Assembly (NCBI GenBank): GCA_025056745.1
Contig: JANWVQ010000025.1
Coordinates: forward strand, 1 to 33,972
Length of the DNA stretch: 33,972 nucleotides
Direction of reading: 5' to 3'
Origin: Ignavibacterium sp.
GTDB lineage: Bacteria > Bacteroidota > Ignavibacteria > Ignavibacteriales > Ignavibacteriaceae
Made by a program: the position numbers and the translations under genes. Positions 17,447 to 30,639 of the stretch are shown piece after piece. Within the stretch, counting starts at the first letter, position 1; every line of letters starts with the position of its first letter. The notes under the pieces were generated by a model. It saw only the letters and a program-made list of their open reading frames with translations, ran no database searches and was not told the origin of the DNA.

Positions 17447-18976
17447 ATGAATAAATTCTCAAGCTTGCTGATTTTAATTGGGATAGTAGTTTTTTTAGTT
17501 TTCAATTCTTTAGTTGATTTGGGCGATAGAAGAATAACAATTACTGCGGGAGTTGCAATTCTAATGGCATTTTGGTGGATGACCGAAACTTTACCTCTTT
17601 ATGTAACTGCATTAATACCTCTAATAATTTTCCCTCTAACTGGAGTTTTATCTGCATCTAAGGTATCAGATGCTTACATAAATTCTACTATTTTTTTGTT
17701 CATAGGTGGGTTTTTAATCGCAATTGCAATTGAGACCTGGAATTTACATAAAAGGATCGCACTTAAGATAATTCTTTTTTTTGGAGCTGAGCCTACTAAG
17801 TTACTTTTCGGTTTTATGATTGCATCTGCATTTTTGTCAATGTGGATTTCAAATACCGCAACAATAATGATGATGCTTCCTGTTGCTTTTGCTGTTTTGA
17901 AACATTTTGAACAATCTTCTGTAAAAAATGAAAATTTGTCTAAAGCACTTTTATTATCAATTGCTTATTCTTGCTCAATAGGTGGAATCGCAACTTTAGT
18001 TGGAACTCAACCAAATTTAGTTTTTGTAAGAATAACAAAAATCAGTTTTCCAAATTCTCCAACTGTGAGTTTTTTTGAGTGGATGTTAATTGCTTTGCCA
18101 ATATCTGTTTTGATTTTAATTCTGACATATTTTTTGGTAAAAACATTGTTCCGAATATCCGATGAGTTTTTAATTTCAAGTTCAATCAATAAGAGAGATT
18201 TTATCAAGGAAGAATATAAAAAATTAGGCAGAATGAGCTATGAGGAAAAGGTTGTTACTGCTGTTTTTTTAACAACAATATTTTTATGGATTACAAAAAC
18301 AAACATAGATATTGGATTTATAAAATTAACAGGTTGGGCAAATATACTTAAAATAGAAAACTATGTTGATGATAGCACTGTGGCAATATTTTCGGCATTT
18401 ATTTTATTTGTAATTCCTGCAACTAAATTTAATTCAATTAAAGATCTCAAAAAAATTTTTACATACAATCAAAGAATTCTTTCAATTAATTCAGTTGAAA
18501 AAATTCCTTGGAATGTTATTTTACTTTTTGGAGGAGGATTTGCTTTAGCCTCTGCGTTTACTGAAACTGGATTATCAATTCTTATTGGAAGCAAATTGAA
18601 ATATCTCTCTGGAGTGGATGAATTAATATTGATATTGGTGGTTTCAATAACCATTAACTTTCTAACAGAATTGACTTCAAACACGGCTGTTACACAAATG
18701 ATTTTACCAATATTAGCCTCAATTTCATTATCATTAAATATTCATCCATTTTTATTGATGATTCCAGCAACTATCGCTGCATCAATGGCTTTTATGTTAC
18801 CTGCTGGAACTCCTCCAAATACGATTGTTTTTTCAAGTAATAAATTAAAAATTATTGATATGGTAAAAACTGGATTTATATTAAATTTGGTCAGCACTAT
18901 TGTAATTTCAATTACTGTTTATTACTTGGGAAACATTATTTTCAAATTAAATGTTTTTCCTCAATGGGCAAGATAA
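17447..18976 (+). CDS. DASS/SLC13-family sodium:carboxylate symporter
   Basis: This inner-membrane transporter belongs to the divalent anion:Na+ symporter family (succinate, malate, citrate or sulfate). Its 509 residues are strongly hydrophobic, with about 11-12 membrane segments. Both family Ser-Asn-Thr signatures, which bind Na+ and carboxylate, are present: MWISNTATIMMM near residue 134 and ELTSNTAVTQMILP near 410. The ending MLPAGTPPNTIVF is typical. The loop at about 245-265 is Lys/Glu-rich and cytoplasmic. The substrate cannot be decided from sequence. It opens a tightly packed ten-gene run; its last codons overlap the next lipoprotein gene by 13 bases. Confidence 0.93.
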   Translation: MNKFSSLLILIGIVVFLVFNSLVDLGDRRITITAGVAILMAFWWMTETLPLYVTALIPLIIFPLTGVLSASKVSDAYINSTIFLFIGGFLIAIAIETWNLHKRIALKIILFFGAEPTKLLFGFMIASAFLSMWISNTATIMMMLPVAFAVLKHFEQSSVKNENLSKALLLSIAYSCSIGGIATLVGTQPNLVFVRITKISFPNSPTVSFFEWMLIALPISVLILILTYFLVKTLFRISDEFLISSSINKRDFIKEEYKKLGRMSYEEKVVTAVFLTTIFLWITKTNIDIGFIKLTGWANILKIENYVDDSTVAIFSAFILFVIPATKFNSIKDLKKIFTYNQRILSINSVEKIPWNVILLFGGGFALASAFTETGLSILIGSKLKYLSGVDELILILVVSITINFLTELTSNTAVTQMILPILASISLSLNIHPFLLMIPATIAASMAFMLPAGTPPNTIVFSSNKLKIIDMVKTGFILNLVSTIVISITVYYLGNIIFKLNVFPQWAR

Positions 18977-19392
18977 AAATTAGATACGTTTATATTTTTT
19001 TAATCTTAATAATATTCTTAATTGTTGGGTGTAGAGAGGATATTATTGAACCTGATAATCCAGCAGGAAATAAAAATTCTCCATTCAGAACTGAAAAAGA
19101 GAATTACTTCGATGTTGCTATTAATGCTGAAGGATTAACTACTGAAATGATTTTCGATACTTATTTTAATTCTGAGAGTAATTTCATTACTGTTTATGTA
19201 AATAATAGGCAAAATGGACTTCTTCAAATAAATATCTTTTCAAAAGAGAATAAACTACTCTTTACAAACAGAATCGAAATAGGAGAAGTAAATATTAGAC
19301 AAAGAATTAGTCGAGGAATACCTGCAAAATTAAAATTGAGTTTTGATAATTTTACTGGTAAGATTAGAATCGTATTAAGCAGGTCATCTTAA
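18964..19392 (+). CDS. Small lipoprotein, family not recognised
   Basis: This 142-residue protein has a strongly hydrophobic signal (YIFLILIIFLIVGC) whose lipobox IVGC marks Cys23 as the lipid attachment site. The mature part begins REDIIEPDNPAG and then forms alternating short beta-type stretches (NFITVYVNNRQNG, LLQINIFSKENKLLF, GKIRIVLSRSS), suggesting a compact beta-sandwich. I recognise no family. The ATG lies inside the end of the SLC13 gene. Position immediately before a T9SS cargo gene, a second lipoprotein and a TonB receptor suggests an outer-membrane role. Confidence 0.8.
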   Translation: MGKIKIRYVYIFLILIIFLIVGCREDIIEPDNPAGNKNSPFRTEKENYFDVAINAEGLTTEMIFDTYFNSESNFITVYVNNRQNGLLQINIFSKENKLLFTNRIEIGEVNIRQRISRGIPAKLKLSFDNFTGKIRIVLSRSS

Positions 19393-19407
19393 TTGAAAGA
19401 GGTTTTT

Positions 19408-20517
19408 ATGAAAAAAATAATTACAATTTTGTTCCTAATGATTTCAACTAACATAGTTTCACAAAATGCTTCAACTTTTTTCCCTTCAAACACTGGTTAT
19501 GTTTGGCGATACAAAATAATTCCGCTAGACACTCTAAACAATCCTATTGATAGTTTAGTAAGTTTTAGAGTTGATTCATTTGCTACCACTGCATTTCTTT
19601 ATAACAAAGATGCAAAAGTTGTTTTATCTAAAACAGGTTTAGATCCATTTTTATATGAAATTCCATTTTTAGATTCAATACTTTACAATATGGAAGGAAC
19701 AAATGGAAATGAATATCTTGGAATGAATCAACTTGAGCCTTTCATTGATTTTTTAACTCAATTTCTTCAGGATTCAACCGGCGGAGTTTACAACTTTTTT
19801 AAATCTTTTGAAGGATGGAAATCATATTATCGATTTGCAAATACTGTAAATGTTCAATATACAGTTTTGCAACGCGATACAACTTTTACTATTGATACTT
19901 TGGTTTTACCATTAAGATTTCAAATACTCGGTCGAAGGCTCAATGATCAAACGATTCAAACAGAAATAGGAGTTTTCAATTGTAAAAAATTTACTTTGGA
20001 TAGAAGATTGAGCTATTTGATAAACTTACCTCCACCATTACCTCCTTTAACTGTAAAAATAGTTGGTTTGCTTGATACAATTTGGGTTGCGCCTCAAAAC
20101 TGGATTGTAAAAACTTTCACTCCTTCAACAACAATAGATCTTAATTTTATTGGATTAGGATCATTTACAATTCCAGGCTTTAAAACTGATATTCACAATC
20201 CACCTCTTTCAGTCAATGATGATATGAAAATACTTCCTGAATTAATCCTATATCAAAACTTTCCAAATCCATTCAATCCAATTACAACTATCAAATGGAG
20301 TTCATCTATTGATGGTTGGACAACCTTAAAAATTTTCGATCCACTTGGTGTTGAATTAATAAAATTAGTAGATGAATTCAAACCTGCAGGGACATATAAT
20401 GTACAATTTAATTCACAAGAGATAAATAAACTAAGTTCAGTCTCAAGTGGAGTATATTTTTATCAACTTAAAGTTGGAAATTATATTCAAACAAATAAAA
20501 TGATAATTCTAAAGTAG
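19408..20517 (+). CDS. Secreted protein with T9SS C-terminal sorting domain (paralogue A)
   Basis: This 369-residue protein carries a Sec signal peptide (IITILFLMISTNIVSQ) and, at residues about 279-369, a type A sorting domain for type IX secretion: YQNFPNPFNPITTIKW, a LKIFDPLGVEL strand, SGVYFYQLK and the final KMIILK. The cargo part (about 20-275) is unnamed. It opens FFPSNTGYVWRYKIIPLD and contains GVFNCKKFTLDRR and DTIWVAPQNWIVKTF. The same landmarks appear in order in the product at 23256, so the two are paralogues. The start is ATG 19408 with GAAAGAGG upstream; the TTG at 19393 is part of the spacer. It is expected to be exported to the surface or the medium. Confidence 0.9.
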   Translation: MKKIITILFLMISTNIVSQNASTFFPSNTGYVWRYKIIPLDTLNNPIDSLVSFRVDSFATTAFLYNKDAKVVLSKTGLDPFLYEIPFLDSILYNMEGTNGNEYLGMNQLEPFIDFLTQFLQDSTGGVYNFFKSFEGWKSYYRFANTVNVQYTVLQRDTTFTIDTLVLPLRFQILGRRLNDQTIQTEIGVFNCKKFTLDRRLSYLINLPPPLPPLTVKIVGLLDTIWVAPQNWIVKTFTPSTTIDLNFIGLGSFTIPGFKTDIHNPPLSVNDDMKILPELILYQNFPNPFNPITTIKWSSSIDGWTTLKIFDPLGVELIKLVDEFKPAGTYNVQFNSQEINKLSSVSSGVYFYQLKVGNYIQTNKMIILK

Positions 20518-21060
20518 ATGAATAATAAAATGCTCAAAAGGATTACTATATCATTATTTGTTTTAGTTTTGATAATTTTATCCTTTAGTTGTGATGATAA
20601 AGGAATTTCTCCATTACCTAAAGTTGATGAAGTCTCCGGGTTTGAAGGAACGGTCTATTTTTTAAGTCCTTGGCCTGATAGTATTCGAAGAACTTATTTA
20701 GTAGTATTTAAAAATCCTCTTCTTCAACCATCTGATTTTGTTGTCTTTAATTTAAAGTATCTTAGTAGAGAAATACCTTTTGGAACACGTGTATTTAAGT
20801 TTAGTTCTCTGGATAGCGCTCTGATTCCTGTTTCACCTGGTCCTTTTGAACCGGGTGAATATCATTATGTTGCAGTTGCTCATCAGACTACTGAAGAATT
20901 ATCTTTAGCAAGAAAAGATTGGTTTGTATCAGGAGTTTATTATGTGAACAACGATACTACCAAGCCCGGCATACTAAAAATTGAAGAAAACAGAATGACA
21001 AGAAATGTAGATATAAGAGTTGACTTCCGAAAATTACCTGCTCAACCACCCGGAGGTTAG
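20518..21060 (+). CDS. Lipoprotein of the T9SS-cargo/TonB-receptor cassette, family not recognised
   Basis: The 180-residue product has a hydrophobic leader and a probable lipidation site at Cys25 (LILSFSC, a relaxed lipobox of the kind common in Bacteroidetes), then CDDKGISPLPK. The mature protein is rich in aromatic and beta-forming residues: GFEGTVYFLSPWPDS, TYLVVFKNPLL, GEYHYVAVAHQTTEE and KDWFVSGVYY. It ends in a proline/glycine tail (QPPGG). This suggests an Ig-like or transthyretin-like beta fold, but I cannot assign a family. It starts at the base after the upstream stop codon, and the TonB receptor ATG follows 2 bases after its own stop. It may be an accessory surface lipoprotein of that receptor. 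Confidence 0.8.
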   Translation: MNNKMLKRITISLFVLVLIILSFSCDDKGISPLPKVDEVSGFEGTVYFLSPWPDSIRRTYLVVFKNPLLQPSDFVVFNLKYLSREIPFGTRVFKFSSLDSALIPVSPGPFEPGEYHYVAVAHQTTEELSLARKDWFVSGVYYVNNDTTKPGILKIEENRMTRNVDIRVDFRKLPAQPPGG

Positions 21061-21062
21061 TA

Positions 21063-23225
21063 ATGTTAAAAATACTTTTTCTATTACTCATAATTCCAAA
21101 CATTTTTATTTATTCACAATCTTACTACATAACGGGACGTGTTACAGATTCCGAATTTTCTCCTATCCCGGGAGTTAATGTATTTTTAACTAATACAACT
21201 TTGGGGTCAGCTACAGATGAGAAAGGTTATTATAAAATAATGAATGTTTCACCGGGAAGTTATCAAATTGAATTTTCTGCAATTGGCTATTCAAGAAAAA
21301 AGTTAAAAGTAAATATTACTAACAAATCCATAGCTTTAGATGTTATTCTTTATCCAGAACCCATTAAAACTGATGAAATTATAGTCACTGCTGGAAAATA
21401 TGAGCAGAAAAAATCTCAACTTCCAGTTAGCACAGATGTTATTTATGGTTCATCACTAGTCGATAGAAATTTTAGAAATCTTGAAAATGCAATGAGGTTC
21501 GTTCCGGGTGTAACGATGACAGAAGATCAAATAAGCATAAGAGGTTCAAGTGGATATAGTAGAGGTGTTGGTGCAAGAGCTTTGGTTACTATTGATGGTT
21601 TACCTTTTCACACAGGCGATACTGGTGAAATTGTTTGGGAAATGATTCCAACAACTGAAATTCAACGAATTGAAATAATTAAAGGTGCGGCAAGTTCTTT
21701 ATATGGCTCATCTGCTATTGGCGGTGTAATAAATGCAATTACAAGGGACATTTCAAAATTTCCCAGAACATTAATCAACGCCTACTATGGATTTTATGAT
21801 AAGCCAACTTATAAAGAATGGGATTGGTCAGGGCAATATAGACCTCTTAATGGTCTGACAATTTCTCATTCAAATTCTTTAGGTGACTTTGGATTTAATA
21901 TATCTTTATCACGCTTGGAAGATTTAGGCTACAGAAAAGAGGATTTTTCTAAAAAATATATTGGATTCTTAAAAATGAATTACAAGTTCAACAATTTTTC
22001 TGATATTACTTTTTTTGCAAATACACTGAATAAACGATCAGGAAATTTTCTTTATTGGAAAGATTCAAGAAACGCATTAATAAATTCAGATTTTGTTAAT
22101 ATCACAAGAGTTCAAACTAATAGATATCTATTCGGACTTATCTACAAAAATTTAATTGACGAAAACTCTATTCTATATTTCAAAGGAAGTTATTATAGAA
22201 ATAATTTTTCTGACAATGGTACTCCATCAAATGTTTCTACTTCTAATCTTTTTAGAGCAGAAACACAACTAACCACAAGTTTAACTAAAAGTATTGTCCT
22301 TACTTCTGGAGCAGAGTTTTCGCCGGCTTTTGTCAAATCAAGTTTGTTTGGAAATCCAAAAGCTTTTTACATCGGAATTTACTCAGTTGCTGATTTAAGT
22401 TTTGATTTTCCGCTAATACTTTCACTTGGATTAAGATATGATATCGGGAAATTAGATTCTCTATCATCTTCCGGTTCACTTTCACCTAAAGTTGGATTAA
22501 ACTATAAGTTGAATGAATATTTAATAATACGCTCCTCATTTGGTACAGGATTTAGAAATCCGTCTTTGGCTGAAGCGTTTACCTCTACGTCAACAAGTGG
22601 TTTGACAATTAAACCTAATCCCAAAATCAAACCTGAAAAAAACATCACATTTGAGATAGGTACTAATTTTACAATACCTTCGTTGTTTGAGTTTGATATT
22701 GCTCTATTTCAAAATGAATATTTCAAGATGATTGAACCAGCTGTGGATACTCTTGATGGTTTGATTTTCTTTAATAATATTTTAAGAGCAAGAATTCAAG
22801 GGATCGAACTAACTTCGAAGTTTGACATAATAAAAGGAATTCTTAAAGCTGGAGTTTCCTATATTTATTTGAGTTCAAAAGATATTGAAAGGAATAAAGC
22901 TCTGAAATATAGACCAAGACATAGCTCAATGGTCTCTGTTGAATTCACAAACTGGCATTTTAATCTTGGAGTTTTCTTTAGATACTCAAGTAAAGTAGAA
23001 GAGATTGATGAAGAACTAATTGATTTAGGTATTGTTAGAGATGGAAGACTTAGAGTGCCAATCTATCAGACTGACGTCAGTTTAGGTTATGATTTATTTG
23101 CATTACATATTCCAGCTAAAATTTATTTAAATGCTTACAACATTTTTAATTATAATTATGTTGAGCTTGTTGGAAATCTAAGACCAATCAGAAATTTTTC
23201 ATTTGGGTTTAATTTGATTTTATAA
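21063..23225 (+). CDS. TonB-dependent outer-membrane receptor with carboxypeptidase-regulatory-like N-terminus
   Basis: This 720-residue outer-membrane transporter would import a scarce ligand such as a siderophore, haem or cobalamin using TonB energy. The order is: signal peptide (about 1-19); CarboxypepD_reg-like domain (about 23-100: TGRVTDSEFSPIPGVNVFL, GSATDEKGYYKI); TonB-box-like DEIIVTAGK; plug domain (about 115-230: RNLENAMRFVPGV, ISIRGSSGYSRGVGARA, IEIIKGAASSLYGSSAIGGV); and a beta-barrel to the end. The late receptor motif FGTGFRNPSLAEAF followed by IKPEKNITFEIG is also present. The barrel is small and closer to BtuB/FepA-type than to SusC-type receptors, which are usually near 1000 residues. 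No tonB, exbBD or SusD gene is nearby. Confidence 0.93.
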   Translation: MLKILFLLLIIPNIFIYSQSYYITGRVTDSEFSPIPGVNVFLTNTTLGSATDEKGYYKIMNVSPGSYQIEFSAIGYSRKKLKVNITNKSIALDVILYPEPIKTDEIIVTAGKYEQKKSQLPVSTDVIYGSSLVDRNFRNLENAMRFVPGVTMTEDQISIRGSSGYSRGVGARALVTIDGLPFHTGDTGEIVWEMIPTTEIQRIEIIKGAASSLYGSSAIGGVINAITRDISKFPRTLINAYYGFYDKPTYKEWDWSGQYRPLNGLTISHSNSLGDFGFNISLSRLEDLGYRKEDFSKKYIGFLKMNYKFNNFSDITFFANTLNKRSGNFLYWKDSRNALINSDFVNITRVQTNRYLFGLIYKNLIDENSILYFKGSYYRNNFSDNGTPSNVSTSNLFRAETQLTTSLTKSIVLTSGAEFSPAFVKSSLFGNPKAFYIGIYSVADLSFDFPLILSLGLRYDIGKLDSLSSSGSLSPKVGLNYKLNEYLIIRSSFGTGFRNPSLAEAFTSTSTSGLTIKPNPKIKPEKNITFEIGTNFTIPSLFEFDIALFQNEYFKMIEPAVDTLDGLIFFNNILRARIQGIELTSKFDIIKGILKAGVSYIYLSSKDIERNKALKYRPRHSSMVSVEFTNWHFNLGVFFRYSSKVEEIDEELIDLGIVRDGRLRVPIYQTDVSLGYDLFALHIPAKIYLNAYNIFNYNYVELVGNLRPIRNFSFGFNLIL

Positions 23226-23255
23226 AATCATCTTTTAATAAATGGAGGAGCTAGT

Positions 23256-24332
23256 ATGAGAAAAATATTTACAACAATAATTTTAATTTCTTTGAATTTA
23301 TGCTTTGCTCAACAGGCTAATACTTATTTTCCTTCGAACTTAGGCTTTGTTTGGAATTATAAAGTTACTCCTCTTGATAGCCTGAATAATCCAATTACAC
23401 AATTAGAATTTTACAGGAAAGACTCTCTTGCTTTGAATTCAAATTATCAAGGCAGATTAGCAAGCTTTGTATTATCAAAAGAAGGTCCTTCACAAACAAT
23501 AAATTCACAACCTTATGTTGATACAAATTTTTATAGTTTTGAAGGCACAAATGCTTTTGAATACTTCAGTTCAAGTGGAATCCAGCAATTTTTACTTCAA
23601 TTAGATTCTCTTAGAATTGATACCAACTTTAATTTTGTTAGATTCTTCAAGTCATTAGAAAATTGGTATTCAGTTTACAGATTTGCAGCAAATCAAGGCT
23701 CAGCTTACACTTTACTTCAAAGAGATACTACAATATCAACTTTTAGAATTAGATTCAAATATTCAGCGACTAGAAATGCTGATCAGACAATTAACACTGG
23801 AATAGGTTCATTTACTTGTAAAAAATTTACAACACAATGGGAGTTCTCATACATACTTGGTATAATAAATGTTCCTTTATTTTCGATTGAAGACACAGTT
23901 TGGATTGCGCCAAATAACTGGATGGTGCGTGCATTTCAACCCTCAAAATCAGTTGATTTATCTCTACTTGGTATTCCTCCATTCAAGATTCAAGGAAGAA
24001 GAATTGATATAGTATCTCAAATTGTCAATGTTAATTACGAAAATGATTTAATTGAAAACTTTGTATTGTTTCAGAATTATCCAAATCCTTTTAATCCATC
24101 AACTAAAATAAGCTGGTATTCACCACAGAGTGGATGGCATTCATTAAAAGTATATGATATTCTCGGAAGGGAAGTTTTAACATTGATTAATGAATATAAA
24201 GAAAAAGGTTTTTATGAAATTGATTTGGATTTGTCAAAATATGTAAATAATTATTTGAACTCAGGAGTTTATTTTTACACTCTTAAAATTGATGATTATT
24301 CACAAACTAAGAAAATGATTTTATTAAAATGA
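23256..24332 (+). CDS. Secreted protein with T9SS C-terminal sorting domain (paralogue B)
   Basis: This 358-residue relative of the product at 19408 has a signal peptide (FTTIILISLNLCFAQ) and the shared cargo landmarks: YFPSNLGFVWNYKVTPLD, RFFKSLENW, LLQRDTT, GSFTCKKFTTQW and DTVWIAPNNWMVRAF. A type A sorting domain occupies residues about 268-358 (FQNYPNPFNPSTKISW, LKVYDILGREVL, SGVYFYTLK, KMILLK). A strong GGAGGAG Shine-Dalgarno precedes the ATG, and the 30-base gap after the receptor is the largest in this part of the operon. The stop overlaps the pepF ATG (ATGA). The cargo domain is unnamed; there are no visible protease, glycosidase or adhesin motifs. Confidence 0.9.
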   Translation: MRKIFTTIILISLNLCFAQQANTYFPSNLGFVWNYKVTPLDSLNNPITQLEFYRKDSLALNSNYQGRLASFVLSKEGPSQTINSQPYVDTNFYSFEGTNAFEYFSSSGIQQFLLQLDSLRIDTNFNFVRFFKSLENWYSVYRFAANQGSAYTLLQRDTTISTFRIRFKYSATRNADQTINTGIGSFTCKKFTTQWEFSYILGIINVPLFSIEDTVWIAPNNWMVRAFQPSKSVDLSLLGIPPFKIQGRRIDIVSQIVNVNYENDLIENFVLFQNYPNPFNPSTKISWYSPQSGWHSLKVYDILGREVLTLINEYKEKGFYEIDLDLSKYVNNYLNSGVYFYTLKIDDYSQTKKMILLK

Positions 24333-26173
24333 AACTTGATAATTTATTTTTCTCAAATTCAATCAATACTACAGAAGAATTATTAGAGCGAAATCAAGTT
24401 GATGAAAAACTAAAATGGAATCTTAAGGATATTTATCAGACTGATGAAAATTGGGAAGAAGATTTTAATTGGGTTGAAAAAAATTATGTCAAATACAAAG
24501 ACTTTAAAGGTAAATTAAAAACGTCCTCACAAAGTCTAATTGAATGCTTGAAGTTTGATGAATCAATTTGCGTTAAACTTGATCGATTAGCCTTATATGC
24601 AATGCTATCCAAAGATTCAGATTTGAGAGTTCAGATTTATCAATCAATGGATAATAGAATCAAATCTCTTTACTCCAAAGTCCTTTCTGAATCTTCTTTT
24701 ATTAAACCTGAAATATTAGAAATTGATAGAGAAGTTCTGAATAAATGGTTGATGGAAAATGAAGAATTAAAATTATACGAACATTACCTTGATGATATAT
24801 TTCGTTGGAAAAATCATTCACACGATCCTACAACTGAATCTATCTTAGCATTATCAACTGAGTTGATGCAAATTCCGTATAATACTTTTTCAATTTTATC
24901 AAACGTTGACTTAAAATTCCCAACTATCAAAGATGAGAATGGAAAAGATTATCAATTATCACACGGTAGATTTTATAGTGCGATGTATTCTAAGAATAGA
25001 CAATTTAGAGAAAACGCTTATCTTGGATTTATGTCAGCTTACAAAGAATTTTCTAAAACTCTAAACACAATTTTCAACGGGAATTTAAAGTCATACATTT
25101 TCAATTCTAAAGTGCGTAACTTCAATTCAGCTTTAGAGGCTGCCTTGCATAAAGACAATATTCCAGTTGATATTTACAAAAATCTAATAAACTCTGTTGG
25201 AAATAATCTTGCACAAATTCATAGATGGGCTCATTTGAAGAGAGAATTTCTTAGACTTGAAAAACTAAAACCTTATGATACTTATGTCTCTTTATTCAAT
25301 GGAGAAGTTGAGAGGTCATATTCTTATGAAGATTCACAAGAAATATTAAAAAATTCTCTTAAGATTTTTGGTGATGAATATATTTCAATTCTTGAAAAAG
25401 CAATTAATGAAAGATGGATTGATGTAATAGAAACCAAAGGTAAAAGAAGTGGAGCTTATTCATCTGGAACTACTTTTGGCGTTCATCCCTATGTTTTACT
25501 AAACTGGAACTTTCAGCTCAATGATGTTTTTACATTTGCTCACGAAATTGGGCATAATCTCCATTCATATTTCACTGGTGTAAGTCAACCTTATGTTTAT
25601 GCAAACTATTCAATATTCTTAGCAGAAGTAGCATCTACTGTTAATGAGGGCTTATTGCTTGAATATTTAATAAATAATGCTGATAGCAAATCTGAAAAAA
25701 TAATTCTAATAGAAAAGTATCTAAATAATATAACTGCAACATTTTATCGCCAGATAATGTTTGCTGAGTTTGAAATGAAGGTTTATGAATTAACTGAGAA
25801 CGGTGCTTATTTAACTGTTGATGATTTATGTAAGCTTTATGGTTCGCTTTATCAAAAATACTGGGGCGAGGCAATAGATGTTATTGAAGAAGAAACTTTC
25901 ACTTGGGCAAGAATACCACATTTCTATTATAATTTTTATGTATTTCAATATGCAACAGGATTTGCTGCATCTGAACAATTATTAAAGAATATAAAAGAAA
26001 ATGGCTCGTCAGCTATAGAAAAATATCTTGACTTTCTTAAAGCAGGCTCTCATAAATATCCTTTAGATGTTTTACTTGAAGCTGGAGTTGATATGAATTC
26101 AACTTTACCAATTGATGCTGTCTCACATAAAATGGAAAATTTATTAAATCAGTTAGAATCTCTAATTAAATAA
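24329..26173 (+). CDS. pepF: Oligoendopeptidase F (M3B metallopeptidase)
   Basis: This cytoplasmic zinc peptidase cuts peptides of roughly 7-17 residues. Its 614 residues match the family. The zinc motif HEIGH (H405-H409) sits in FTFAHEIGHNLHSYFTG, and the third ligand is expected in FLAEVASTVNE about 25-30 residues later. The N-terminus carries the usual LKWNLKDIYQTDENWEEDF. There is no signal peptide. The first 20 residues extend beyond the typical start, but the ATG overlaps the upstream stop in a classic coupling arrangement. It links the secreted-protein cassette with peptide breakdown, as do the OPT transporter and PepD further down. Confidence 0.95.
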   Translation: MKLDNLFFSNSINTTEELLERNQVDEKLKWNLKDIYQTDENWEEDFNWVEKNYVKYKDFKGKLKTSSQSLIECLKFDESICVKLDRLALYAMLSKDSDLRVQIYQSMDNRIKSLYSKVLSESSFIKPEILEIDREVLNKWLMENEELKLYEHYLDDIFRWKNHSHDPTTESILALSTELMQIPYNTFSILSNVDLKFPTIKDENGKDYQLSHGRFYSAMYSKNRQFRENAYLGFMSAYKEFSKTLNTIFNGNLKSYIFNSKVRNFNSALEAALHKDNIPVDIYKNLINSVGNNLAQIHRWAHLKREFLRLEKLKPYDTYVSLFNGEVERSYSYEDSQEILKNSLKIFGDEYISILEKAINERWIDVIETKGKRSGAYSSGTTFGVHPYVLLNWNFQLNDVFTFAHEIGHNLHSYFTGVSQPYVYANYSIFLAEVASTVNEGLLLEYLINNADSKSEKIILIEKYLNNITATFYRQIMFAEFEMKVYELTENGAYLTVDDLCKLYGSLYQKYWGEAIDVIEEETFTWARIPHFYYNFYVFQYATGFAASEQLLKNIKENGSSAIEKYLDFLKAGSHKYPLDVLLEAGVDMNSTLPIDAVSHKMENLLNQLESLIK

Positions 26174-26183
26174 AAGGGAAAAA

Positions 26184-27197
26184 ATGAAAGTTTATACAAA
26201 AAAAGATCTCAATGAATTTCATCAATCTTTGACTTATGATGATATAAGCCTAATTCCAACGGAAGTTTCTGAAATTAAATCAAGAACTGAAGCCAAGACC
26301 GATACAAATTTTCTTGGAATCAAACTTAAACTTCCTATTCTATCAAGTCCTATGGATACAGTAACTGGAATTGAAATGGCTGAAGCATTGAGCAAACTTG
26401 GTTGTCTTGGTATCTTAAATAGATTTGATTCTTCACTAAATGAAGTTTTGAATTCAAAAAATAAATTGAATATCAAAGCAGTATCTATTAGTCTTAGTAC
26501 CGGCTTGGATGTTATAGAAAAATTAGTTGAAAAAAAGATGATTATTTGTATTGACACTGCCAATGCAAACAATAAAGAAGTTTTGAAAAAGTGTGAGTCA
26601 ATAAAAAATAAATTCGAAACTAAAGTAATTATTGGAAATATTGCACACGGCGGAACTTTACAAGATTTGGAAAACGCTGGAGCAGATGCTGTTCGTGTTG
26701 GGATTGGAAGTGGTAGCGTTTGTACAACATCAATCCAAACAGGAATAGGAATTGGACAAGTATCTTCCATTCTTAATGTTTATTTCAATCGTGAAGAGAA
26801 AAAATTGAAAATTAAAATTATCGCAGATGGTGGAATAAAAAGTCCGGGTGATGTGGCCAAAGCAATTGCTTTAGGTGCAGATGTAGTTATGCTTGGAAGA
26901 ATGTTATCAGGTACCAAAGAAACTCCAGGAGAGGTCATCAAATACAAAGGACAATTATGGAAAAAGTATCGCGGTTCTGCTTCATTTGGTGTGAAAATGA
27001 GAAATGAGTTTATTGAAGGAGAGGAAACTATGGTACCTTATAAAGGAACTGTTGAAAATGTAATAAATGCAATTTCAGATGGACTAAGAAGCTCAATGAG
27101 TTATATGAATTGTTTTACTCTGAACGAATTAAGAAAAGTTGAAACTTTCGCTGTTTTAAGTAATAGTTCTTATTTAGAAAGACTTCCAAAAACATAA
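26184..27197 (+). CDS. IMP dehydrogenase / GMP reductase family enzyme, CBS-less
   Basis: This TIM-barrel enzyme interconverts IMP with XMP or GMP. Landmarks: [20 protein letters not shown] at the start, [33 protein letters not shown], the catalytic cysteine Cys180 in [31 protein letters not shown] and the flap region [10 protein letters not shown] followed by [10 protein letters not shown]. At 337 residues it lacks the two CBS domains of ordinary IMPDH, so GMP reductase (GuaC) or a short IMPDH-like form are the main choices. The residue after CTT is Ser183 where both families normally have Arg, which is odd. A GGGA ribosome-binding site precedes the ATG; pepF ends 10 bases upstream. Confidence 0.9.
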
Positions 27198-28686: not shown

Positions 28687-30639
28687 ATGGCAGAACAAAA
28701 ACGGTTCGTTCCTTTCGTCTCCTCCGAGACAAATATGGCTGAATTTACAATACGCGCTTTATTGATTGGTCTCATTATGTCTGTGGTTTTAGGAGCTGCT
28801 AATGCATATCTAGGGCTCAAAGCTGGAATGACAATAGCAGCAACCTATCCTGCAGCTGTTATTGGTATGGCTGTTCTTCGCTTGTTGAAAGGCTCTATTC
28901 TTGAAGAAAATTTTGCAAGAACTGTTGGCTCAATCGGAGAATCTATCGCTGCCGGAGCGATTTTTACTTTACCAGCATTTTATATCGCTGGAATATGGAT
29001 ACCATTTTATACAACAACAAATTATCTAATTTCTGTTGCGATAATGGCTGCAGGAGGTGTTCTTGGAATTATGTTTGTTGCGATGCTCAGAAGAGTTTTA
29101 GTTGAAGATGCTGAGCTTCCATTTCCAGAATCAGTAGCCGCTGCAGAAATTCACAAGGCAGGCCAAAGAGGAGGTTCAAGCTCAAAATTTCTTTTTACTG
29201 CTATGGGAGTTGGTGCAATCATCAAAGCTTTGGGAATGTTGAAGTTATATGCAACAAGTTTCAAACATATTTTTAATATTGGTCAGGGGAAATTACTTTT
29301 CATTTCACCTGATGTAAAGCCAGCTTATATGGGAGTTGGTTATATAATCGGTCCTAAATTAGCAGCTTTAAATTTCAGTGGTGGATTAATTGCTTGGGGA
29401 CTTTTAACCCCTATAATTGCTTATTTCAAATACCAAAATGCTGAGCTACCAGCTGACTTCAATTGGTTAGATGGAATGACTTCGGTCTGGAAAGATTTTG
29501 TAAGACCAATCGCAATCGGTGGAATGTTAGTTGGTGCAGGTTATACTTTGTTTAGAATGAGAAAAAGTCTTGGTGCTGGAATCTCTCGTTCAATTAAAGA
29601 TGTTAAAAAAGCCGCAGCAGGCGTTCAAACAACTGATAGAATTGAAAAAGATATTAATATTAAAACGGTTGCATTAATAATATTAGCAACTTCTATCGGA
29701 ATTTTCTTTATATACAATTACTTCGCTCAAGATGTCTTAGCAGCTTTAGTTGCAACAATTGTTCTTGTAGTTGCTGGATTTTTCTTCTCAGCAGTTTCAG
29801 GATATTTAGTTGGTATTATTGGTTCGAGTAATAATCCAGTAAGCGGATTGACAATTTCAACTTTAGTTATTGCTGCTGTTTTAATGGTTGCTTTAGGAAT
29901 GAAAGGAACACAAGGAGTTGCTGCGGTAATTGGAGTTGCTGCAGTTATTTGTGTTGCTGCTGCTGTCGCAGGTGAAATGTTTCAGGATTTGAAAGCTGGA
30001 CATATTTTAGGTGGTACTCCCTGGAAAATGCAAACTGGAAATATAATAGGTGCAATTGTATCATCATTTGTAATGTTTTTACCACTTTTAATACTTCACG
30101 AAGGTGATATTAAAATGGGAGGAACTGGTTTCGGTGGTGAAAATATTCCAGCCCCTCAAGCATCACTTATGGCTATTCTATCTCAAGGAATAGTTGATGG
30201 GAAAATGCAATGGATTCTTATATTAACCGGTATGTTGATGGGATTTGGTTTTATATTAATGAATGTTCGAAGTCCAATGTTGGTAAGTGTTGGAATGTAT
30301 CTTCCTTTAGGAACAACTTTTGCAATTTTCATCGGCGGTTTAGTTAAAGGCTTGGTTGAAAAAATAAATGAAAAGAAACAGTTTAACGATGCTCAAAAAG
30401 CTAGAGTTGAAAATACCGGAATTTTATTGGCAGCTGGAATGATTGCAGGTGAAGCCTTGATTGGATTATTATTTGCCGGATTTGCTTTCTATGATATAAA
30501 ACTATTTGCAATCTTTAAAGAGCCGGGATTCATAATAAGCATCTTAGTTTTCGTATTCATTGCTTGGTATTTCACTCAAATACCAATAGCAAATGCTGGT
30601 AAACCTGATGAACCTGCACCACCACAGGTTTCAATGTAA
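28687..30639 (+). CDS. OPT-family oligopeptide transporter
   Basis: This inner-membrane proton-coupled transporter belongs to the oligopeptide transporter superfamily. The 650 residues contain about 14-16 hydrophobic segments. The family start (FTIRALLIGLIMSVVLGAAN, then AYLGLKAGMTIAATYPAAVI) and the NPVSGLTISTLV and AGEMFQDLKAGHILGGTPWK blocks are visible. A cytoplasmic linker sits near 295-325. Bacterial members transport peptides or, in some cases, metal chelates; the substrate is inferred to be peptides from the adjacent PepD. It has a clear AAGGAG Shine-Dalgarno with a 7-base spacer, and its own 130-base upstream region separates it from the preceding operon. Confidence 0.93.
   Translation: MAEQKRFVPFVSSETNMAEFTIRALLIGLIMSVVLGAANAYLGLKAGMTIAATYPAAVIGMAVLRLLKGSILEENFARTVGSIGESIAAGAIFTLPAFYIAGIWIPFYTTTNYLISVAIMAAGGVLGIMFVAMLRRVLVEDAELPFPESVAAAEIHKAGQRGGSSSKFLFTAMGVGAIIKALGMLKLYATSFKHIFNIGQGKLLFISPDVKPAYMGVGYIIGPKLAALNFSGGLIAWGLLTPIIAYFKYQNAELPADFNWLDGMTSVWKDFVRPIAIGGMLVGAGYTLFRMRKSLGAGISRSIKDVKKAAAGVQTTDRIEKDINIKTVALIILATSIGIFFIYNYFAQDVLAALVATIVLVVAGFFFSAVSGYLVGIIGSSNNPVSGLTISTLVIAAVLMVALGMKGTQGVAAVIGVAAVICVAAAVAGEMFQDLKAGHILGGTPWKMQTGNIIGAIVSSFVMFLPLLILHEGDIKMGGTGFGGENIPAPQASLMAILSQGIVDGKMQWILILTGMLMGFGFILMNVRSPMLVSVGMYLPLGTTFAIFIGGLVKGLVEKINEKKQFNDAQKARVENTGILLAAGMIAGEALIGLLFAGFAFYDIKLFAIFKEPGFIISILVFVFIAWYFTQIPIANAGKPDEPAPPQVSM

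Follow-up and report, generated by a model that had tools for sequence, protein, structure and literature searches.

A type IX secretion cargo with a predicted LolA-like domain is genetically linked to a lipoprotein–TonB receptor pair in Ignavibacterium and its relatives

Two gene modules adjoin in the Ignavibacterium window

Do closely packed genes for exported proteins form one surface system, or do separate modules meet by position? The question is raised by a 33,972-nucleotide stretch of Ignavibacterium sp. DNA (the whole of which is termed the window), where two lipoproteins, a TonB-dependent receptor (TBDR) and two paralogous cargo proteins of the type IX secretion system (T9SS) are encoded in immediate succession, and where an initial annotation saw a five-gene capture-and-import cassette. 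LipoA and CargoA are referred to below as module A, and LipoB, TBDR and CargoB as module B. The features of the region are as follows.

17447..18976, + strand: DASS-family sodium/anion symporter (PF00939 and TIGR00785 over cutoff); module A neighbour that adjoins CargoA in other genera too
18964..19392, + strand: LipoA, predicted lipoprotein of 142 aa, module A, no family; near CargoA in 12 loci
19393..20517, + strand: CargoA, with signal peptide, predicted YmcC/LolA-like domain and T9SS type A sorting domain; likely ATG at 19408
20518..21060, + strand: LipoB, predicted lipoprotein with a beta-sandwich model; constant neighbour of a TonB receptor
21063..23225, + strand: TonB-dependent receptor (TBDR) extended N-terminally by a CarboxypepD_reg domain; partner of LipoB
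23256..24332, + strand: CargoB, with signal peptide, predicted YmcC/LolA-like domain and T9SS type A sorting domain; member of the TonB-receptor-linked clade
24329..26173, + strand: PepF oligoendopeptidase (TIGR00181 over cutoff); conserved CargoA neighbour in relatives
26184..27197, + strand: IMPDH/GMP-reductase family gene (GuaB; PF00478); conserved PepF neighbour
28687..30639, + strand: OPT oligopeptide-family transporter (PF03169); near the trio of module B only within the window's genus

The coordinates, the common + strand, the spacing of 0–30 bases and the export signals of all five products, from LipoA to CargoB, were confirmed as first annotated. The co-directional run is longer than these five genes, extending from the DASS gene (17447), which LipoA overlaps by 13 bases, past CargoB, which overlaps PepF by 4 bases, through the IMPDH/GMP-reductase-family gene (27197).

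Both cargo proteins carry a C-terminal sorting domain above curated cutoffs, by PF18962 (type A sorting; CargoA E 1.3e-7, 32.3 bits; CargoB E 4.6e-9, 36.9 bits; cutoff 27 bits) and by TIGR04183 (CargoA E 4.9e-8, 32.8 bits; CargoB E 1.4e-10, 41.0 bits; cutoff 23 bits). The same genome encodes T9SS machinery, with SprA and a PorU-type sortase both over cutoff, and sorting domain and machinery together identify CargoA and CargoB as predicted T9SS type A cargo. When CargoA was compared with its own genome, 85 places matched, nearly all through the sorting tail alone, indicating that T9SS cargo is common in this genome and that two adjacent cargos are unremarkable in themselves. Among these 85 places, only CargoB matched the N-terminal domain along its length, and it is the paralogy of the two N-terminal domains (41–43% identity) that constitutes the notable feature. 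These domains had no Pfam or NCBIfam match; the sequence motifs first used to pair the two cargos are real and are conserved in 42 homologues.

The cargo N-domain was searched for in 97 related genomes, and 40 loci were fetched and their neighbours read. It was found in 44 of the 97, usually once, and a single-protein cargo scan returned four Ignavibacterium/Ignavibacteria MAG contigs. LipoB, TBDR and CargoB were linked in every complete context observed, amounting to 12 loci (the window and 11 others) in five genera, with two gene orders and with differing flanks composed of DUF1028 genes, BNR-repeat T9SS proteins, OPT with DUF2400, or module A genes. At one locus (L055), CargoB leads the order and is separated from LipoB by another T9SS protein. 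Within the cargo-linked clade, every LipoB locus uncut by a contig end has CargoB, and the same-clade LipoB matches with no visible CargoB are situated at contig ends. CargoA exhibited a different pattern in the fetched loci, lying near LipoA in 12, DASS in 7, and PepF plus the IMPDH/GMP-reductase gene in 11–12, with no TonB receptor nearby outside the window-type arrangement. Interleaving of both modules was seen in only three genomes of one genus (G000, the window; G001; G002), in which the trio is placed between CargoA and PepF, while in another genome of that genus (G005) the trio lies near OPT with PepF ~67 kb away, a rearrangement for which either direction fits. The five genes are a local junction of two modules and not one system. 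Relatives split LipoA–CargoA from LipoB–TBDR–CargoB, and the expectation that the neighbours would be conserved together was borne out for the trio and failed for CargoA and LipoA, which are inherited with DASS, PepF and GuaB and no TonB receptor. Separately, three near-identical short tandem ORFs (MRFGESHY...ADSRALPKS) at L075:356-1028 are probably a repeated DNA element.

In a tree of 42 cargo domains, all 12 receptor-linked cargos fell in one clade of 13 (support 100/98), while the window CargoA formed its sister clade together with two relatives from its own genus and three cargos from a different one (grouping with the CargoB clade 93/85). The cargo-linked receptors also formed one clade (100/100), and cargo and receptor distance matrices agreed (r 0.81), an agreement to which shared species history contributes. 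No more than two receptor positions distinguish the cargo-linked clade, so that the receptor shows no indication of a new contact surface. The 13th member of the CargoB clade (L060, G018) belongs to a genome without LipoB and lies 230 bases downstream of a different TonB receptor; as G018 encodes 14 Plug proteins in 4.1 Mb, at about one gene per kb, the chance of a Plug neighbour for this cargo is <1%. At L163 (G429), a plain lipoprotein form of the domain follows a Plug protein at a distance of 110 bases; as one among about ten plain lipoprotein relatives, it lends weak support to the receptor link.

Predicted fold of the cargo domain

The cargo domain was modelled with confidence (pLDDT 89.8, pTM 0.86) and compared with solved structures by Foldseek and VIA-align. 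The closest matches were 3FZX, described as YmcC-like (Z 14.2, 176 aligned, rmsd 5.5), and 4FVS (Z 13.3, 186 aligned, rmsd 6.5), both scoring well above unrelated rows, with E. coli YmcC (Z 7.1), LolA and LolB following at lower Z. The model is consistent with a YmcC/LolA-like open antiparallel beta-barrel that matches solved members across the whole domain, and the rmsd of 5.5–6.5 suggests that the barrel opening differs between the cargo domain and 3FZX/4FVS. The overall fold is common to YmcC/GfcB, BF2203 (3FZX), BDI_3050 (4FVS) and the wider LolA/LolB fold; these proteins have no T9SS sorting tail, whereas the cargos have one, and sequence identity is 7–15%. The initial view of an undescribed cargo fold is wrong by this model. 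LolA-like folds serve also as scaffolds or chaperones. In E. coli, GfcB/YmcC, which has been compared to LolA, interacts with partner proteins at the outer membrane (PMC8592465). A literature search found no paper on this locus or on T9SS LolA-like cargo.

The cargo domain was also found without a sorting tail, as plain lipoproteins in other families of the phylum (profile comparison of plain lipoprotein with cargo domain: 99.2%, E 1.5e-19, 219 columns), and therefore comes in two forms, one a lipoprotein, the other T9SS-tailed. Some of these plain lipoproteins weakly match the DUF3108-like family PF21347 (E 1.2e-4, below its cutoff), in contrast to CargoA and CargoB themselves, which matched neither PF21347 nor PF11306 at E <= 1. 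Profile comparison of the cargo domain with DUF3108 proteins was not significant over the domain, which thus has the fold by its model without being classed in the DUF3108 family. At L161:3617-5308, the gene immediately upstream of the lipoprotein form of the domain is a DUF3108 gene, and at L162 and L174 DUF3108-like genes lie two genes from that form; these may possibly be tandem relatives of one fold.

LipoB and TBDR as an ancient pair, and tests of receptor class

The 21063..23225 product comprises CarboxypepD_reg, Plug (PF07715, 3.1e-22) and barrel (PF00593, 2.1e-38) domains, of which Plug and barrel are above cutoff, identifying it at the sequence level as a TonB-dependent receptor. Its partner LipoB exhibits a lipobox cysteine, a C-(D/G/S)-x-G-(I/L)-x-P start and a PPxQPPGG end, and was modelled as a small beta-sandwich (pLDDT 89.9) whose best fold relative reached Z 6.3; this is the level of common beta-sandwiches, and no fold family is claimed. 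LipoB does not show a surface lipoprotein export signal. LipoA likewise has a lipobox cysteine and begins C-R-E-(D/E) in most orthologues, with a conserved C-R-E-(D/E)-I start; this resembles the K-(D/E)2 export signal of Bacteroidetes lipoproteins (PMC5080379), so that LipoA may face outward at the cell surface. Kinship of LipoA and LipoB was rejected, as their alignment was limited to the signal peptides.

LipoB is present in 62 of the 97 related genomes and, across the phylum, in 111 of 395, where cargo is mostly absent. TBDR follows directly after LipoB in 30/30 near loci and adjoins it in 16/20 distant loci, and in near relatives outside the CargoB lineage the two genes lie mostly between PurM and TatD genes with no cargo. 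LipoB–TBDR is thus an ancient pair, the old core to which CargoB is an addition in one lineage; as most genomes having the pair lack the cargo, CargoB is at best accessory. By its consistent gene adjacency, the pair is predicted to be of the general kind of lipoprotein-assisted TonB transporters.

Several further elements were observed around LipoB. An exported protein of ~325 aa lies between PurM and LipoB in several genomes (L114:6740-7714, L130:10090-11076, L131:6901-7884), the L114 copy having no Pfam match. Several genomes encode a 65-aa protein of no family with four cysteines (CLNC...CSHC; L051:5711-5908, similar in L058, L066 and L067) in the interval between a DUF1028 gene, a small lipoprotein and LipoB. 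At L120:21-273 (G046:C275), a CRISPR-like array is found just upstream of the LipoB gene, with four copies of the 38-nt repeat ATTCTTTGAATGACGTGAATGAATCAACGAATTGAAAC (last copy 87%) spaced 70–73 nt.

TonB transporters capped by a lipoprotein are characteristic of Bacteroidetes (PMC10404256), and three known systems are reminiscent of the arrangement seen here. BtuG–BtuB, of Bacteroides cobalamin uptake, is a lipoprotein and a TonB-dependent transporter encoded together, as are LipoB and TBDR, and BtuB models match the window receptor among others, far below their cutoffs (129 bits versus 600 for TIGR01779; 139 versus 836 for NF007926), such that a BtuB cobalamin receptor was rejected. The window differs from it in that LipoB is a 156-aa (mature) beta-sandwich without a sequence family, a T9SS protein is added and there is no riboswitch; the cobalamin-riboswitch control raised as a possibility at the outset found no backing, as Rfam gave no match, cobalamin riboswitch included, in the window or 8 loci. 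SusC–SusD and RagA–RagB, like the window, combine a CarboxypepD_reg-extended TonB receptor with a lipoprotein partner, but the receptor scored 104 bits against a SusC/RagA cutoff of 368 (TIGR04056), no SusD match was found in LipoA or LipoB, and the cluster has no SusD-type protein, as had been noted initially; a SusC/SusD system was accordingly rejected. In Porphyromonas gingivalis, secreted surface proteins feed the lipoprotein/TonB receptor pair HmuY–HmuR. Module B is similar in joining a predicted secreted surface protein to such a pair. HmuY–HmuR with gingipains, in haem uptake (PMC10100897), differs in that CargoB is LolA-like by its model and not a protease, and in that the window receptor has no histidine in the stretch from the FRAP box to the NPNL box, as was the case in all 26 receptors where this stretch was readable. 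A haem receptor of HemR/HmuR type was likewise rejected (159 bits versus a TIGR01785 cutoff of 317).

No conserved metal or haem ligands were found, with almost no conserved His or Cys in the receptor. In one distant genome (L192:8096-11423), LipoB–TBDR and a zinc-type ABC operon (ZnuA, ABC-3), with a possible porin, are in divergent orientation. Zinc was rejected as ligand, given that this arrangement was seen once and that the receptor has so few conserved His or Cys. By analogy, the LolA-like fold suggests a hydrophobic or amphipathic ligand.

Candidate role of CargoB and competing explanations

The favoured reading, at about even odds, is that CargoB, displayed through T9SS, binds a ligand with its LolA-like domain on behalf of a lipoprotein-assisted TonB importer. 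The linkage of CargoB with the importer rests on genomics; surface display, physical contact, ligand class and direction of transfer are what we infer, starting from gene content, sorting domains, the fold model, linkage and phylogeny. By analogy with the layouts of BtuG–BtuB, SusD–SusC and HmuY–HmuR, LipoB and TBDR would constitute an outer-membrane TonB-dependent uptake pair in which LipoB would sit with the barrel and help to load TBDR. CargoB would have joined this pair in a single lineage of Ignavibacteriaceae-type genomes; it would leave via the Sec and type IX systems, become fixed to the cell surface, bind a small and probably amphipathic or hydrophobic ligand in its open barrel and present it to the receptor. 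The sister-clade paralogue CargoA, with its own LipoA and other neighbours, would have the fold in common, with no evidence of an uptake role. The initial proposal of capture and import is, in this form, reasonable as T9SS-assisted surface uptake for the conserved LipoB–TBDR–CargoB trio, and is not supported for the two cargos as a pair.

A tentative alternative is that the linkage reflects shared regulation of envelope genes, with LipoB–TBDR importing alone and CargoB, co-transcribed by historical accident, performing an unrelated job such as envelope lipid or glycan handling in the manner of GfcB/YmcC. This would accord with the absence of cargo from most LipoB–TBDR loci, with the position of the same-fold CargoA among housekeeping genes and with the part of YmcC/GfcB in capsule export rather than uptake (PMC8592465), and co-expression alone could hold the trio together. 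However, the trio is kept in several flanks, two gene orders and five genera, and the sole LipoB-less orthologue adjoins another TonB receptor, both of which count against this alternative.

It is rather improbable that the trio belongs to a RagAB-like route for peptides or peptide-like metal chelates, by which TBDR, LipoB and CargoB would act across the outer membrane, followed by OPT and PepF/M20 peptidases. PepF, OPT and an M20 peptidase all lie <9 kb away in the window, and in genus g1 both arrangements place the trio close to OPT, but in two single-contig genomes of other genera OPT and the trio are ~190 kb (G030) and >1 Mb (G006) apart, in G005 PepF does not lie near the trio, and the stable partner of PepF is CargoA/GuaB and not the receptor. 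A single five-gene system, in which the two cargos on either side of the receptor act together to pass it a ligand, is very improbable despite the tight spacing and an order kept in three genomes of the genus, since the modules are apart, or one is alone, in all other relatives with intact loci, and the window CargoA and CargoB fall in different clades.

To return to CargoB as a partner of the importer, it is conceivable, though doubtful, that a LolA/YmcC-like ligand carrier has been moved outside by type IX secretion to form the surface ligand-binding arm of a TonB importer, with its LipoB partner representing an undescribed family conserved across the phylum. The novelty is real but modest, consisting of a conserved, unnamed lipoprotein/TonB-receptor pair and a lineage-specific T9SS partner of known fold. 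Many Bacteroidota-type genomes seem to have LipoB–TBDR as a core transport pair, and its lipoprotein has no named family. If CargoB serves TBDR, the deliveries of T9SS would go past enzymes and adhesins to include a ligand binder dedicated to a TonB transporter, and a fold familiar from the periplasm would function extracellularly.
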